Positions 4,978-59,305 of a stretch of DNA of 60,800 nt are shown piece after piece. A program made the translations under genes and the position numbers. The stretch comes from an uncultured Oscillospiraceae bacterium (GTDB lineage Bacteria > Bacillota > Clostridia > Oscillospirales > Oscillospiraceae). Positions within the stretch are counted from its first letter, which is position 1; every line of letters starts with the position of its first letter. The notes beneath the pieces are model-generated. The model ran no database searches and had not been told where the DNA came from. It saw only the letters and a list, made by a program, of their open reading frames with translations. The stretch covers positions 1 to 60,800 of the forward strand of contig CANROC010000018.1 in assembly GCA_947632175.1 (NCBI GenBank). The letters run 5' to 3'.

Positions 4978-5113
4978 GGACCGCTCTGTCCTCCACTCTT
5001 CGCTGCCCCCCTGCCCCCCCTCCTACGAGGAGGGGGCGAAAAAGGTTTGCGCCGCCTTGCGGCGCATTCTTGGATTTGTCCGCGCGGCGGGGACGGGGGC
5101 GGCGACCCCTACA
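4978..5113. repeat. intergenic repeat block R1
   Basis: Contains the CCCCTCCT/AGGAGGGG hairpin module, the AAAAAGGTTTGCGCCG...CGGCGCA module and a CGGGGACGGG tail ending GGCGACCCCTAC. All recur in the larger arrays. It fills the space between the sigma factor promoter and the small RNA promoter. Confidence 0.8.
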
Positions 5114-5142
5114 TATTTTTGCTTACGAATACTAAAAAATAC

Positions 5143-5171
5143 TTGACAAATCACTTAATTTGTGGTATAAT
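5143..5171 (+). promoter_or_regulatory. SigA promoter of candidate small RNA, copy 1
   Basis: TTGACA (5143-5148), exactly 17 bp, TATAAT (5166-5171), with an extended -10 (GTGGTATAAT). A full consensus promoter with no gene behind it on this strand: the next gene on either strand is the convergent PFK. Confidence 0.85.
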
Positions 5172-5177
5172 ACGCAT

Positions 5178-5350
5178 ATCTGAAGAAAGCGGATTGATCC
5201 CCTTATCGAGCATTTTTTCCGGCGGCATGTACGTCGGAAAAAATACCTTTTGTTTTGCGGAGTGTGCGGCTCCTACGAGGCCGTGCGCGGAGCAAAACGG
5301 CAGAAAAGGATTTCGGAAATGTCCGCGGACATTTCCGAAATCCTTTTCGC
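5178..5350 (+). ncRNA. candidate structured small RNA, copy 1
   Basis: About 170 nt from the predicted start. Hairpin 1 is ATTTTTTCCG / CGGAAAAAAT around the loop GCGGCATGTACGT. Hairpin 2 pairs GTTTTGC with GCAAAAC. The 3' end is a perfect 44-nt palindrome (5304-5347) ending in CCTTTT, which can serve as terminator. A homologous copy lies at 19719-19885 with the same promoter, and the 3' stem differs by two compensatory pair changes and one wobble. Both copies converge on a minus-strand gene. I see no ribosome-binding site plus open frame that would make it an mRNA. It does not match tmRNA, RNase P or SRP RNA; a divergent 6S RNA is not excluded. Confidence 0.6.
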
Positions 5351-5361
5351 ACGTTCCCTTT

Positions 5362-5390
5362 GTCGGAAAAGGCCAACGGCCTTTTTCGAC
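5362..5390 (-). terminator. terminator of the PPi-PFK gene
   Basis: A 13-bp stem (minus strand GTCGAAAAAGGCC / GGCCTTTTCCGAC, one wobble) with a 3-nt loop, 5 bp past the stop codon. T-rich arms on both sides make it plausible in either direction. Confidence 0.7.
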
Positions 5391-5395
5391 AGGTT

Positions 5396-6625
5396 TTATG
5401 CCTCCGGGCAGTAGATGTGGTACGGCTGGCCCTCGATGTAGATGGGGGTGAGCTCGGCCTGGATGAGGGGGCGGGCGTAGTTGAGGAAGGCCGGGAGCAT
5501 GTCGGTGAAGTTCTCGTTGACCCACTCCAGCGGGACCTTTTTCTCGAGGTTCGCGACCTCGGAAATGGGGTGGAGCTCGGTGACGCACTGGTAGGGCTTG
5601 TTGGAGACGCGGCGGAGGGCCACCATCTCGCCGGTGTGGCCGTGGAAGGCCGCCTGGGCCGCCGCGCCGCCCACCTGGTAGGCCTCGGTGATGTCCGTGC
5701 GGCTGGTGAGGTGCGAGGCGCAGCGCTGGAGGGTGGAGAGCTCGATGGAACGGGTCTTGGTGTCCAGGCTGCGCTCCACCTGCCCCGCCAGATACCGGGC
5801 CGTGCCGGTGAGGTTCTTGTGTCCGAAAGCGTCCACGCGCCGGGGGTCGTCGGAGAGCTCGCAGACGTAGCGCCCGTCCTCCAGCTTCACGCCCTCGGAG
5901 ACGGCGATGACGATGCTGGGCTTCTTCTCCTGCATGACCCGGACCTTTTCGATGAACCGGTCCACGTGGAAGGGCACCTCGGGCAGGCAGATCATGTCCA
6001 CGCCCTCGCAGTCCTCGCCTCTGGCCAGAGCGGCGGCGGCGGTGAGCCAGCCGGCGTTGCGGCCCATGATCTCCACGATGGTCACGTACTTGGTGCCGTA
6101 GACCGTGGCGTCCCGGATGATCTCCTTCATCACCACGGATATGTACTTGGCGGCGCTGCCGTAGCCGGGGGTGTGGTCGGTGATCATCAGGTCGTTGTCG
6201 ATGGTCTTGGGCACGCCCATGAAGCGGATGTCGGAGCAGACATGCTCGCCGTAGTCGGCAAGCTTGCCGATGGTGTCCATGGAGTCGTTGCCGCCAATAT
6301 ACATAAGGTATCCCACGTCCAGCTCCTCCAGGAGGGCCATCAGCTTCTTGTACGGCTCCTCGTCCTCCCGCCAATCCGGGAGCTTGTAGCGGCAGGAGCC
6401 CAGGTAGCTGGAGGGCGTGCGCTTCAGAAGCTCGATCTCCAGGCCCGTCTTGAATTTCTGGCTGAGATCCACGTACTTGCCCTGCAAAAGTCCCTCCACG
6501 CCGTGGAGCATCCCGTAGACGTGCTCCGCGCCCCGGGCACGGGACGCCTCGTAGACGCCCGCCAGGGAGGAGTTGATGACCGAGGTGGGACCGCCGGACT
6601 GGCCGACCATGACATTCTTACCCAT
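5396..6625 (-). CDS. 6-phosphofructokinase, diphosphate-dependent type
   Basis: A 409-residue cytoplasmic glycolytic enzyme phosphorylating fructose 6-phosphate. The donor-binding loop GQSGGPT is at residues 8-14. The two residues that distinguish donor use are Asp in GGNDS (111-115) and Lys in PKTIDND (139-145), the combination of PPi-dependent enzymes; ATP enzymes have Gly at the first site. MGRNAGW and the YQVGGAA segment are also typical. The start has AAGGAGG 7 nt upstream. The gene is monocistronic with its own terminator. A second PFK of ATP type is at 13490-14578, so the cell could run a reversible PPi step beside the irreversible ATP step. Confidence 0.92.
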   Translation of the reverse strand: MGKNVMVGQSGGPTSVINSSLAGVYEASRARGAEHVYGMLHGVEGLLQGKYVDLSQKFKTGLEIELLKRTPSSYLGSCRYKLPDWREDEEPYKKLMALLEELDVGYLMYIGGNDSMDTIGKLADYGEHVCSDIRFMGVPKTIDNDLMITDHTPGYGSAAKYISVVMKEIIRDATVYGTKYVTIVEIMGRNAGWLTAAAALARGEDCEGVDMICLPEVPFHVDRFIEKVRVMQEKKPSIVIAVSEGVKLEDGRYVCELSDDPRRVDAFGHKNLTGTARYLAGQVERSLDTKTRSIELSTLQRCASHLTSRTDITEAYQVGGAAAQAAFHGHTGEMVALRRVSNKPYQCVTELHPISEVANLEKKVPLEWVNENFTDMLPAFLNYARPLIQAELTPIYIEGQPYHIYCPEA

Positions 6626-18838: not shown

Positions 18839-19655
18839 GAAGAGTTTGGGGGAAACGGTCTGTCATCCCACGCTCGCTGCCCCCCTGCCCCCCTCCTACG
18901 AGGAGGGGGCGAAAAAGGTTGCGGCTTCGCCGCAGATTTTGATTTTCCCGCGCGGCGGGGACGGGGGATACGGGCGGGTTTGGAACCCGCCCCTACCATT
19001 TTTGGGATGCGTATCCATTCACGCCGTAGGGGTCGCCGTCATCTCCGGCCCGCGTTGCGATGATTTCCGGCGTCGGTTGAATGGAACAACTTCCCAAATC
19101 CCCCGTAGGGGCGGACCCATGTGTCCGCCCGTGGCACGTGGCGGGATGGGAATGGTTCCGATAAAACGGTACATGTCGGTCAACCGGGGAAAAGGGCCGC
19201 CGCGGGCGGCGGCCCGTACGGCGGTGGTCGGAACGGGTCGATAGACGCAACGCGGGCCGCCAGGAGTGGCGGCCCCTACAAGGTACGTTGTCGGAACGGT
19301 TCCGATAAATTGCATCGCCCCCCGTCTCGGAGCCCCCTCCTCGTAGGAGGGGGGCAGGGGGGCAGCGAACGTTGGATGACAGAGCGGTTTCGGTAAAATG
19401 GAAAATGGCCATTATTGGGAGGTGTGGGCCGCTGTGGGCAGCGGCCCGTACGGCGTTGTTCGAATTGTGTCAATAAACGGGGGGCGGGTCGCCGGGGACG
19501 GCGGCCCGTACGGCGGATTTCGCAGGCCGGTGGCGCGGCGGCGGGGGCGGGCGGGCGGGGGATATAAAGAATGCGGCGCAAGCCGCAAACCTTTTTCCCG
19601 CCGCCGCGCGGACCCTTCCGGCGCTTCGCGCCACCTCCCCCAGGGGGGAGGTTAA
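18839..19655. repeat. intergenic hairpin-repeat array R3
   Basis: Order on the plus strand: CCCCTCCT/AGGAGGGG module, a GCGGGTTT/AACCCGC copy, GTAGGGGTCGCC class, GGGCGGAC-CCATGT-GTCCGCCC, GGGCCGCC-GCGGGC-GGCGGCCC (reverse), GGGCCGCC-AGGAGT-GGCGGCCC (reverse), AGCCCCCTCCT module, GGGCCGCT-GTGGGC-AGCGGCCC, GGGTCGCC-type (reverse), and one copy of the GCGGCGGGGGCGGGCGGG...GCCACCTCCCCC module. It separates the symporter gene from small RNA copy 2. No gene seen. Confidence 0.85.
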
Positions 19656-19683: not shown

Positions 19684-19712
19684 TTGACAAATTACTCATT
19701 TTGTGGTATAAT
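19684..19712 (+). promoter_or_regulatory. SigA promoter of candidate small RNA, copy 2
   Basis: TTGACA (19684-19689), 17 bp, TATAAT (19707-19712), extended -10 GTGGTATAAT. The spacer and flanks resemble copy 1 at 5143. Confidence 0.85.
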
Positions 19713-19718
19713 ACGCAC

Positions 19719-19885
19719 ATCAGAAGAAAGCGGACAAAACTCTCTGTCGAGCATTTTTTCTGGCGGCATGTACGTCGGAAAAAATTCCTTTTGTTTTGCG
19801 GAGTGGGAAGCGTTGCGAGTGCGCGGAGCAAAACGGCAGAAAAAGATTTTGGAAATGTCTGCGGACATTTCCAAAATCTTTTTCG
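19719..19885 (+). ncRNA. candidate structured small RNA, copy 2
   Basis: Same layout as copy 1: the hairpin ATTTTTTCTG / CGGAAAAAAT with the identical GCGGCATGTACGT loop, the GTTTTGC / GCAAAAC stem, and a 3' stem of about 20 bp (19840-19883) ending in CTTTTT. Against copy 1 the 3' stem shows G-C to A-T and C-G to T-A replacements on both arms and one C-G to T-G wobble, which is what selection on pairing would give. The middle (about 19735-19745) and the tip of hairpin 2 are variable. Confidence 0.6.
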
Positions 19886-19906
19886 CCAGGGGCGTTCCCC
19901 TTGGCA

Positions 19907-19930
19907 TTTGAAGCCCGTCAGGGCTTCAAA
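19907..19930 (-). terminator. terminator of the coaD operon
   Basis: TTTGAAGCCC, GTCA loop, GGGCTTCAAA: a perfect 10-bp stem 11 bp after the last stop codon of the minus-strand operon. Confidence 0.65.
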
Positions 19931-19940
19931 GCCGGTTGTG

Positions 19941-20447
19941 TTACATTTCTACGTCCACGCTGCTGGCCTGGTCCTTTTGGGGCATGGCGGCGGCGGAGGC
20001 GGTGCGGAAGCGGGAGCGGGAGTCGCGGACCTCGGTGAGGGCCTCGGTGATGGCCTCCTCGGTGCGGCGGAGGGCGTCGTCGGCGTAGTCGTTGGCCACG
20101 CGGCGAAGCTCGGCGGATTTCTGCTCGGCGGCGGCGACGATCTCGGTGGCGCGCTGGCGGGCGGCGCGGACGATCTCCTCCTGGTCCACCATCTGGCGGG
20201 CCTTCTGCTCCGCCACGCGGCGCAGGGACTCGGCCTCGCGCTTGGCGTTGTTCACATACTCCGCCCTGGCCGCCACAAGACGCCGGGCCTCGGCAAGCTC
20301 GCCGGGGAGCTGGGCCTTGATCTCGTCCAGCAGGTCCAGGACCTTGTTGCGTTCGATGACGCACTTCTCCGCCCCCAGAGGCAGGCCCCAGGCGTCCGTG
20401 ATCATATTGTAGAGCATGTCCAACAGTTCCTGAACATCGTTACCCAT
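19941..20447 (-). CDS. coiled-coil protein, ATP synthase b-subunit-like
   Basis: A 168-residue protein, nearly all of it one long charged coiled coil (residues about 45-135, rich in Ala, Glu, Arg). The N-terminus MGNDVQELLDMLYNMITDAWGLP is followed by ERNKVLDLLDEIKAQLP, a pattern of DivIVA/SepIVA-like proteins often annotated as ATPase in Clostridia. There is no membrane segment. It is the last gene after coaD. A cell-envelope scaffolding role is only a guess. Confidence 0.65.
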   Translation of the reverse strand: MGNDVQELLDMLYNMITDAWGLPLGAEKCVIERNKVLDLLDEIKAQLPGELAEARRLVAARAEYVNNAKREAESLRRVAEQKARQMVDQEEIVRAARQRATEIVAAAEQKSAELRRVANDYADDALRRTEEAITEALTEVRDSRSRFRTASAAAMPQKDQASSVDVEM

Positions 20448-20469: not shown

Positions 20470-20949
20470 TTATTTTGTGAGCTTATCCAGGACGTCCCGG
20501 GCAATCTCCCGGGGGACGACCTTGGAGATATCCGCGTTGTACATAGCCATCTCCCGGGCGATGGTGGAGGAGAGGTATGTATACTTCTCGTCCGCCGTCA
20601 AAAAGACCGTCTCGATCTCCGGGGCCAGCTTTTTGTTGAGGAGGGCGATCTGGAACTCCATCTCGAAGTCCGACACGGCCCGCAGGCCCTTGATGATGAA
20701 CGTGGCCCCCTGGGCTCTGGCGAAGTCCACCAGAAGGCCGTCAAAGGAGGCGGCCTCCACGTTGCCGTACTTGCCGATGACCCGGCGGACGAAGTCCGTC
20801 CGCTCCTCCATGGAGAAGTGGGGGCGCTTGGAGGAATTCACCGCCACGCAGACGATGACCTTGTCGAAAAGGCGGGAGGCCCTTTTGATGATGTTCAGGT
20901 GCCCCAGGGTGATGGGGTCGAAGGAGCCGGGGTAGACGGCGATCTTCAT
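20470..20949 (-). CDS. coaD: phosphopantetheine adenylyltransferase
   Basis: A 159-residue enzyme adenylating 4'-phosphopantetheine to dephospho-CoA in coenzyme A synthesis. The nucleotidyltransferase motif is GSFDPITLGH (HxGH-type, residues 8-17), with KGLRAVSDFE and the C-terminal TYLSSTIARE substrate segment. The length is normal. It overlaps rsmD by 4 bp, the common rsmD-coaD arrangement. The start has GGAGG upstream. Confidence 0.96.
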   Translation of the reverse strand: MKIAVYPGSFDPITLGHLNIIKRASRLFDKVIVCVAVNSSKRPHFSMEERTDFVRRVIGKYGNVEAASFDGLLVDFARAQGATFIIKGLRAVSDFEMEFQIALLNKKLAPEIETVFLTADEKYTYLSSTIAREMAMYNADISKVVPREIARDVLDKLTK

Positions 20950-55752: not shown

Positions 55753-55826
55753 GCAGATATAGTTCATCGGTAGAACGACGGCTTCCCAAGCCGTAGAGGT
55801 GGGTTCGATTCCCATTATCTGCTCCA
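55753..55826 (+). tRNA. tRNA-Gly (anticodon CCC)
   Basis: 74 nt including an encoded CCA. The acceptor stem GCAGATA / TATCTGC, anticodon stem ACGGC / GCCGT with loop TTCCCAA, and T loop GGTTCGATTCC are all intact. It has its own promoter and a strong terminator, so it is a single-gene transcription unit. Confidence 0.96.
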
Positions 55827-59229: not shown

Positions 59230-59305
59230 TGGAGCGGCCTACGAGGCTCGAACTCGCTACCTCCACCTTGGCAAGGTGGCGCTCTACCAGATGAGCTAAG
59301 GCCGC
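59230..59305 (-). tRNA. tRNA-Gly (anticodon GCC)
   Basis: 76 nt including an encoded CCA. The acceptor stem GCGGCCT / AGGCCGC, anticodon stem CCACC / GGTGG with loop TTGCCAA, and T loop AGTTCGAGCCT are all intact. It is the second tRNA-Gly of the window; CCC and GCC anticodons complement each other for GGG and GGC/GGU codons. Confidence 0.97.

Follow-up and report, generated by a model that had tools for sequence, protein, structure and literature searches.

Introduction

Insertion of IS1272, a member of the IS1182 family, is directed to stem-loops, and the element takes their place (Wan et al. 2017, PMC5678879). The model set out in the part of that paper drawn on here includes a branch in which the whole stem-loop is duplicated, an outcome that this part does not report for IS1272 itself. 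Folded, non-coding repeats are described from several other bacteria. The pneumococcal BOX, RUP and SPRITE families are small interspersed repeats with folded transcripts; BOX and RUP have terminal repeats and duplications, and all three are overrepresented between convergent genes (PMC3049150, in the portion used). The bcr1-bcr18 repeats of the Bacillus cereus group, as outlined in the sections of PMC3446304 used here, often lie in UTRs, some being MITE-like and some having conserved RNA structure. Correia elements and other promoter-bearing MITEs have sigma70-type promoters, and Correia elements sit upstream of genes and can drive them (PMC10969869, in the portion used).

Here we analyse two loci in a window of 60,800 nucleotides from an uncultured Oscillospiraceae bacterium (contig CANROC010000018.1). 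As in the IS1272/IS1182 system, there is an IS1182-family transposase, targets are palindromic and some insertions lie just downstream of genes. Unlike IS1272, for which the available part of PMC5678879 describes replacement of the stem-loop and no duplication, full elements and MITEs here are both found with the whole hairpin duplicated, and the mobile unit is non-coding. The likeness to BOX, RUP and SPRITE and to bcr1-bcr18 is one of description rather than sequence: the organisms differ, and the parts of PMC3049150 and PMC3446304 considered do not describe whole-terminator duplication and terminator targeting, respectively. As in Correia elements there is a promoter, but in our case it mostly faces the 3′ ends of genes. 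We think it highly probable, judging from the sequence comparisons below, that both loci belong to a genus-wide family of non-autonomous MITEs of about 110-430 bp, moved by IS1182-family transposases and targeting terminators, with a promoter joined to a subset.

Results

Two related loci in the window

Read directly from the window sequence, copy 1 occupies 5143-5350 and copy 2 19684-19886, both on the + strand (table 1). The initial annotation described two related stretches, each a promoter followed by a structured RNA region, and reading, alignment and comparison of the folds with shuffled sequences bore this out. Across query positions 1-208 the two copies share 85% identity, in an alignment that takes in the promoter and the whole RNA region. 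The consensus SigA promoter that had been claimed is present in each copy as TTGACA-17-TATAAT, matching at 12/12 positions with TG preceding the -10 (extended -10), where 0.3-0.4 promoter-like sites would be expected per region. Single-strand folding gave z-scores of -7.8 for copy 1 and -6.5 for copy 2 against 200 shuffles. Pairwise alignment also reproduced the identical hairpin-1 loop, GCGGCATGTACGT, and the 3′ stem differs, just as described, by two compensatory exchanges and one wobble. The proposed three-part structure was correct as far as it went: the three hairpins are there, and a fourth is also part of the unit in both copies, its end lying 3-6 bases from the opposing ORF.

The convergent genes had been given as PPi-PFK and the coaD operon. 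The first stands; at copy 2 the nearest opposing ORF is one of 168 aa that adjoins coaD. Copy 1 is flanked by PFK and by a 417-aa minus-strand ORF, the latter without a family match, and copy 2 by minus-strand ORFs, agcS on one side and the coaD side on the other. Other hairpin-like intergenic repeats lie beside both copies (4990-5080 and 19330-19600; CCCCTCCTACGAGGAGGGGG and GCGGC..GCCGC types), and repeats of these types recur in the flanks of other family copies.

At the gathering threshold, Rfam models, 6S RNA included, matched the window only at two tRNAs, 55753-55823 (+) and 59233-59305 (-), in agreement with the statement that no known family fits. Relaxed Rfam scans of both places yielded sub-threshold matches only, mostly microRNA models on the near-perfect hairpin 3 (the best, a microRNA model, at E 0.0003 and 32.6 of 86 bits). 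Rfam scans of 15 further loci of the repeat family or its promoter gave no match.

Table 1. Features of the two window copies and their convergent neighbours.
Feature	Position	Strand	Remarks
Copy 1 A-tract and SigA-type promoter, extended -10; member of a dispersed module	5131..5171	+	TTGACA 5143-5148, TATAAT 5166-5171
Copy 1 5′ leader	5172..5211	+	start site expected near 5178
Copy 1 hairpin 1, loop region GGCATGTACG nearly invariant	5212..5244	+	helix 1: 99.9% of cells paired
Copy 1 hairpin 2: lower stem variable, middle stem conserved and G-U rich, tip variable	5251..5299	+	helices 2 and 3
Copy 1 hairpin 3: long near-perfect palindrome, entire stem varies among copies	5300..5350	+	helix 4: two-sided changes at 13/15 pairs
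Copy 1 hairpin 4, right terminal repeat TTTTTCGACAGG at end, then TTTTA; terminator-like	5359..5393	+	
PPi-dependent phosphofructokinase (PPi-PFK), 3′ end abutted by copy 1	5396..6625	-	NF010675, 470 bits
Copy 2 SigA-type promoter, 12/12, extended -10	19684..19712	+	
Copy 2 hairpin 1	19753..19785	+	
Copy 2 hairpin 2	19792..19835	+	
Copy 2 hairpin 3	19836..19886	+	
Copy 2 hairpin 4 (TTGGCATTTGAAGCCC..GGGCTTCAAAGCCGG)	19901..19935	+	
168-aa ORF opposing copy 2	19941..20447	-	V-type ATPase subunit E match weak, far below cut-off
coaD, adjoins the 168-aa ORF near copy 2	20470..20949		

A dispersed family in the host genome

Querying the host genome (3.54 Mb, 82 contigs) with copy 1 gave 72 matching segments, with several segments belonging to one copy. 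There are 59 exact occurrences of the 14-mer GGCATGTACGTCGG, and 64 at no more than one mismatch, compared with one for the reversed control. When hairpin 1 was searched with mismatches at the fetched places, 63 rows were obtained, one pair of which is the same copy, leaving 62 distinct members; this figure counts copies with a recognisable hairpin 1 and leaves out those lacking it, such as L197. The initial annotation was right that the element is structured, non-coding and preceded by a promoter, but ‘duplicated’ is the wrong description, because the two copies belong to a dispersed mobile family. An ordinary two-copy sRNA gene is rejected.

Classified by left end, 28 host copies have a left terminal repeat (class T), 11 a promoter (class P) and 23 something else (class X; 24 rows including the duplicate). 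Both window copies fall into class P. Six places in the host genome with a right end not assigned to any copy were read, and none of them contains an autonomous element: L192 and L196 are solitary hairpin 4 sequences, L197 is a further copy of the element that the hairpin-1 search missed, and the matches at L193, L194 and L195 contain no element and are apparently coding.

Some copies contain additional sequence. In five (L036, L038, L039, L040 and L186) the tip of hairpin 2 accommodates another structured repeat, about 100-220 bp long, near CGGGGTCCCCGGCGGGC..GAGCGATGCCAGCGCC. Three others (L074, L086 and L088) contain internal sequence resembling the IS1182-type end GGGGCTGTGAAAA, which suggests that the element is itself a target.

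Terminal repeats and duplicated terminator hairpins

The 28 host T copies have the terminal repeat CAG..TGTCAAAAA; they start like CAGGTTGTCAAAAAACTC and finish like TTTTTCGACAGGCTG. The ends of this mobile form, CAG..TGTC(A/G)AAAAA, are like those of full IS1182-family elements in genomes of the same genus. The commonest length is 213 bp (8/26 copies with both ends), within a range of 112-434 bp. Immediately outside both ends of many T copies stands the same palindrome, 14-35 bp long and specific to the site, which reads as a terminator hairpin.

Across all genomes there are 64 T rows (28 own, 36 from other genomes), and the right end is recognisable in 53. A direct repeat is present at both ends in 33 of these 53 (18/28 own and 15/36 other-genome rows), and each of the 33 repeats can form a hairpin with 5 pairs or more; left and right flanks taken from different copies passed the same duplication rule in only 13 of 2756 pairings. 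The 18 host T copies are each bracketed by a duplicated, entire terminator hairpin of the host. The remaining 20 of the 53 rows fail the rule, and failing rows include truncated and contig-end copies and the coding insertion L187. The last, on the minus strand at about 5940, is a T copy beside a 5-bp repeat (AACCT) rather than a hairpin, seemingly within a putative helix-turn-helix regulator gene, as judged from the reading frame. In 6/33 duplications (L013, L039, L042, L062, L094 and L097) an inverted loop is clearly the better fit, which plain staggered insertion does not predict. The orientation of T copies relative to flanking genes is unbiased (8 upstream only, 6 downstream only, 18 both and 1 neither; n = 33).

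Sites with and without the element could be compared at the terminator occupied by host insertion L007, where the neighbouring gene was matched in 13 other genomes. At this position G015 and G017 lack the element and have a single similar hairpin, and G002 and G013 likewise have a single hairpin. G019 and G011 contain separate insertions with their own hairpins duplicated, that of G011 in the opposite orientation; an insertion in G001, of which one side was seen, is likewise in the opposite orientation. The remaining genomes are unclear, without the element, or cut at this point.

The family as a whole is short, non-coding and multi-copy, with target duplications and empty sites, and its T copies share terminal inverted repeats with an autonomous element. 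The window copies have neither the left terminal repeat nor a duplicated hairpin, and no empty site was seen for them; the right end of copy 1 is T-like, TTTTTCGACAGG, and lies beside the PPi-PFK stop codon. Because the left repeat and the duplication are absent there, we infer the arrival of the window copies by transposition from the rest of the family.

IS1182-family partners

IS1182-family transposase genes are present in 19/60 genomes searched (E <= 1e-20), and 30 such loci were scanned for ends. Seven (L202-L207 and L209) are bounded on either side by CAG..TGTC ends at a spacing of 1496-1648 bp, encode transposases that score over the NF033551 cut-off, and are each surrounded by a complete duplicated palindrome (7/7). 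Their ends are of two types, TGTCAAAAAA in the L205 group and TGTCGACAAAC in the L202 group. L217/L224 (751 bp) and L223 (989 bp) have matching end types but a different hairpin on each side; at the remaining loci the ends are of another kind or present singly, often GGGGCTGTGAAAA. At the 33 T rows and the seven IS elements we do not observe loss of the stem-loop without duplication, as in IS1272-type replacement, since the stem-loop is found twice; the window copies, which stand in the place of the terminator, could be of either kind.

In the host assembly, which is split into 82 contigs, we found no IS1182 element whose ends match. The two IS1182 pieces found there end in GGGGCTGTGAAAAAAGTCCC and were rejected as the direct partner; IS1634 was likewise rejected as the mover, having no match in the host genome. 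Taken together, the ends, the hairpin duplications and the empty sites argue for an IS1182-type MITE that targets terminators, and we infer that an IS1182-family transposase moves it. In the mechanism we envisage, the transposase would join the element ends at the two feet of a terminator stem-loop, and repair would then duplicate the whole hairpin, leaving one on each flank.

Distribution and the PFK site

A covariance-model search, which the initial annotation had proposed as a check, found further homologues with covariation: the body is present in 33/60 genomes, comprising 31/34 of the same genus (including the host) plus G034 and G042. Copy numbers within the genus reach at least 54 per genome, the highest number of candidates scored in any one. 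Outside it, G034 has one weak match and G042, from another family, has 48; a second search found 61 weaker matches in G042. Of 20 loci read from these two genomes, 18 share a hairpin 1 of similar form, in most cases next to an additional 5′ hairpin, and the other two lay off-centre in the sequence read. The G042 loci L322, L324-L330, L332 and L333 and the G034 locus L323 represent a distant related repeat, in which the additional 5′ hairpin lies near GCCTCGCAGAGTTTCGC and the hairpin-1 loop is again similar, in most loci GGCGTGTACG.

Among the matches listed are Oscillospiraceae, Clostridia and Eubacteriales assemblies; most are isolates called Lapin, a name that points to rabbit, and there is a single Dysosmobacter and a single Oscillibacter. 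Plasmid and phage collections gave no match to the element, an exact-pattern search of IMG/VR gave none, and no title or opening of an abstract among the open-access papers listed in our searches described this repeat family.

The PFK site was compared in 13 other genomes with a PFK at least 94% identical. A form of the element is present in five (L229, L235, L236, L237 and L238), a short relic in one (L232), the end of another IS1182-type element in one (L234) and a simple hairpin in six. On this comparison, the element occupies the place otherwise taken by a terminator. In the nearest relative, G015 (99%), hairpin 4 is nearly the same, hairpins 2 and 3 differ and there is no promoter, so modules have been exchanged at one site.

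Conserved fold and strand asymmetry

For the fold we gathered 179 rows (63 own, 116 from other genomes). The core is complete and free of large inserts in 105, and from these we aligned the 81 rows (25 own) with mutual identity below 93%. The consensus has four helices in three hairpins. Two-sided changes occur at 31/44 pairs and 96.7% of cells are paired. The covariation score is 0.467, compared with 0.164 for shuffles and at most 0.136 when partners are slid; none of 500 shuffles reached any of five covariation measures, and sliding the partners destroys the signal. Entire stems of hairpins 2 and 3 are swapped between copies with pairing retained, while the hairpin-1 loop is almost invariant and the stems vary.

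Palindrome correction during replication can yield paired changes. Two-sided changes alone are for this reason no proof of an RNA role, and the two exchanges in a perfect palindrome that had been taken as evidence of selection on RNA structure are insufficient. Strand-specific G-U pairing in hairpins 1 and 2 is stronger evidence. On the promoter strand, G-U cells outnumber A-C cells 339:31 over all hairpins of the 81 copies, which falls to 77:31 once the count is restricted to pairs that are Watson-Crick in the majority of copies; within hairpins 1 and 2 the figures are 303 and 6. The promoter strand is also the better folder for 40/42 distinct hairpin-1, 97/100 hairpin-2, 87/102 hairpin-3 and 84/120 hairpin-4 sequences. 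This excess of G-U over A-C suggests that RNA of the promoter strand is likely the selected form of the fold, although the asymmetry is not fully independent evidence because the copies share ancestry.

The same data bear on the possibility that only the DNA palindromes matter, as cruciform targets or transposase sites, with paired changes arising by palindrome correction and no role for RNA. Hairpin 3, a near-perfect palindrome with little strand bias (36 G-U, 25 A-C), would suit such a reading, as would a transposon family that targets palindromes, seen in the duplications here and in the available part of PMC5678879. We nevertheless consider it improbable: correction would be expected to turn G-U into Watson-Crick pairs, yet hairpins 1 and 2 keep theirs on one strand.

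Two further proposals can be settled from the alignment. An alternative fold had been suggested in which two CCTTTT segments compete for one AAAAGG; CCTTTT is present in 63/81 copies and AAAAGG in just 1/81, and this fold switch is rejected. A small protein starting at the ATG in the hairpin-1 loop would have an open frame in copy 1 and several others, but the length modulo 3 of the stretch that runs from this ATG to where hairpin 3 ends divides 35/25/20 in 80 copies, 25/80 contain a stop and no ribosome-binding site was seen preceding the ATG. The unconserved frame and the stops exclude coding, as the initial annotation had maintained, and the chance of such a protein is negligible.

A separate promoter module

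The promoter is a dispersed unit in its own right, with 32 host sites at no more than 3 mismatches and none in the controls. A second pattern found 37 host sites, mostly antisense into the 3′ ends of genes and with or without the RNA body. Host examples include L261, L270, L271, L277, L280, L284, L285 and L286 and, in the window, 5143-5171 and 19684-19712. In 39 module copies (<=4 mismatches), the hexamers have 4 mismatches over 468 positions and the other positions 85 over 741, mostly at the spacer centre, within the bounds that the search pattern sets on visible divergence. Only 4/34 genomes have the module (33 searched besides the host): the host, G015 (5), G017 (7) and G013 (1). It appears to be lineage-specific and joined to a subset of elements that includes both window copies.

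We examined 37 promoter sites from the host and its sisters. At 29, an opposing ORF of 170 aa or more has its stop 9-266 nt ahead of the promoter; at five of these sites the longer ORF is the co-oriented one, which is not decisive because the DNA is GC-rich. The other eight either cannot be read clearly or go against this pattern, and the promoter at L266 drives a peptide deformylase gene in its own orientation. We tested 18 of the opposing ORFs for protein families: at the E limits used, 14 have a match and four have none; the matches include EF-Tu (tuf), EF-Ts (tsf), RpoC, Spo0A, SpoVT, citrate synthase, adenosylhomocysteinase (ahcY), RNase Y, MnmE and ArgRS (argS).

This arrangement raises the possibility that the promoter copies insulate gene ends, with strong hairpins and a convergent promoter together blocking read-through from a highly expressed gene. 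The position of the opposing ORFs and the identity of genes such as tuf, tsf, rpoC, spo0A, citrate synthase, argS and ahcY are consistent with this, as is the simple hairpin that relatives without the element carry at the PFK site. In 19/35 P or X rows (one a duplicate), the opposing stop lies 30-60 nt past the box GCACGTTCCC, at about the end of hairpin 4, a count made by an automatic rule with some ORFs misassigned. On the other hand, hairpin 4 of most printed copies lacks a T tract on the gene’s strand, and the longer co-oriented ORFs at 5/29 sites fit less well. We regard an insulator function as quite possible, at slightly short of an even chance.

Alternatively, the promoter copies could be functional genes for trans-acting small RNAs, with the hairpin-1 loop as the contact site and the promoterless copies as mobile derivatives. 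A consensus promoter with near-invariant hexamers would be expected of such genes, and a loop that stays almost constant over 81 copies while the stems change, with a similar loop in the distant genome G042, points the same way. However, the promoter module is confined to 4/34 genomes whereas the body is found in 33/60, the promoter also occurs without the body, and G015, the closest relative, has the body without the promoter at the PFK site. Genes of this kind seem unlikely to us, and a trans-acting role is less likely than one at gene ends.

Discussion

On the reading we prefer, that of MITEs inserted at terminators, the body, as promoter-strand RNA, would fold into three conserved hairpins and the end hairpin, and a strong, lineage-specific SigA promoter module would have become joined to a subset of the elements. 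The window copies stand at the 3′ ends of host genes in the place of the terminator, where their product is probably an RNA of about 200 nt directed against the end of the neighbouring gene. The net effect is most likely that of a selfish repeat that is tolerated and, in part, has been put to use as a gene-end boundary. A bolder idea, which we think rather doubtful, is that the convergent promoter module and the mobile structured RNA together form a new gene-end unit that fixes the transcript ends of highly expressed genes.

If true, dozens of genes, including many core genes, would have received at their 3′ ends a near-consensus promoter pointing antisense. The family itself links conserved RNA folds with transposons that read DNA hairpins, subjects that are usually treated separately, and its elements offer natural, replicated evidence for whole-hairpin duplication. 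They also represent a large RNA-structure family in gut bacteria that has no Rfam entry and that may be mistaken for regulatory RNA or small proteins.
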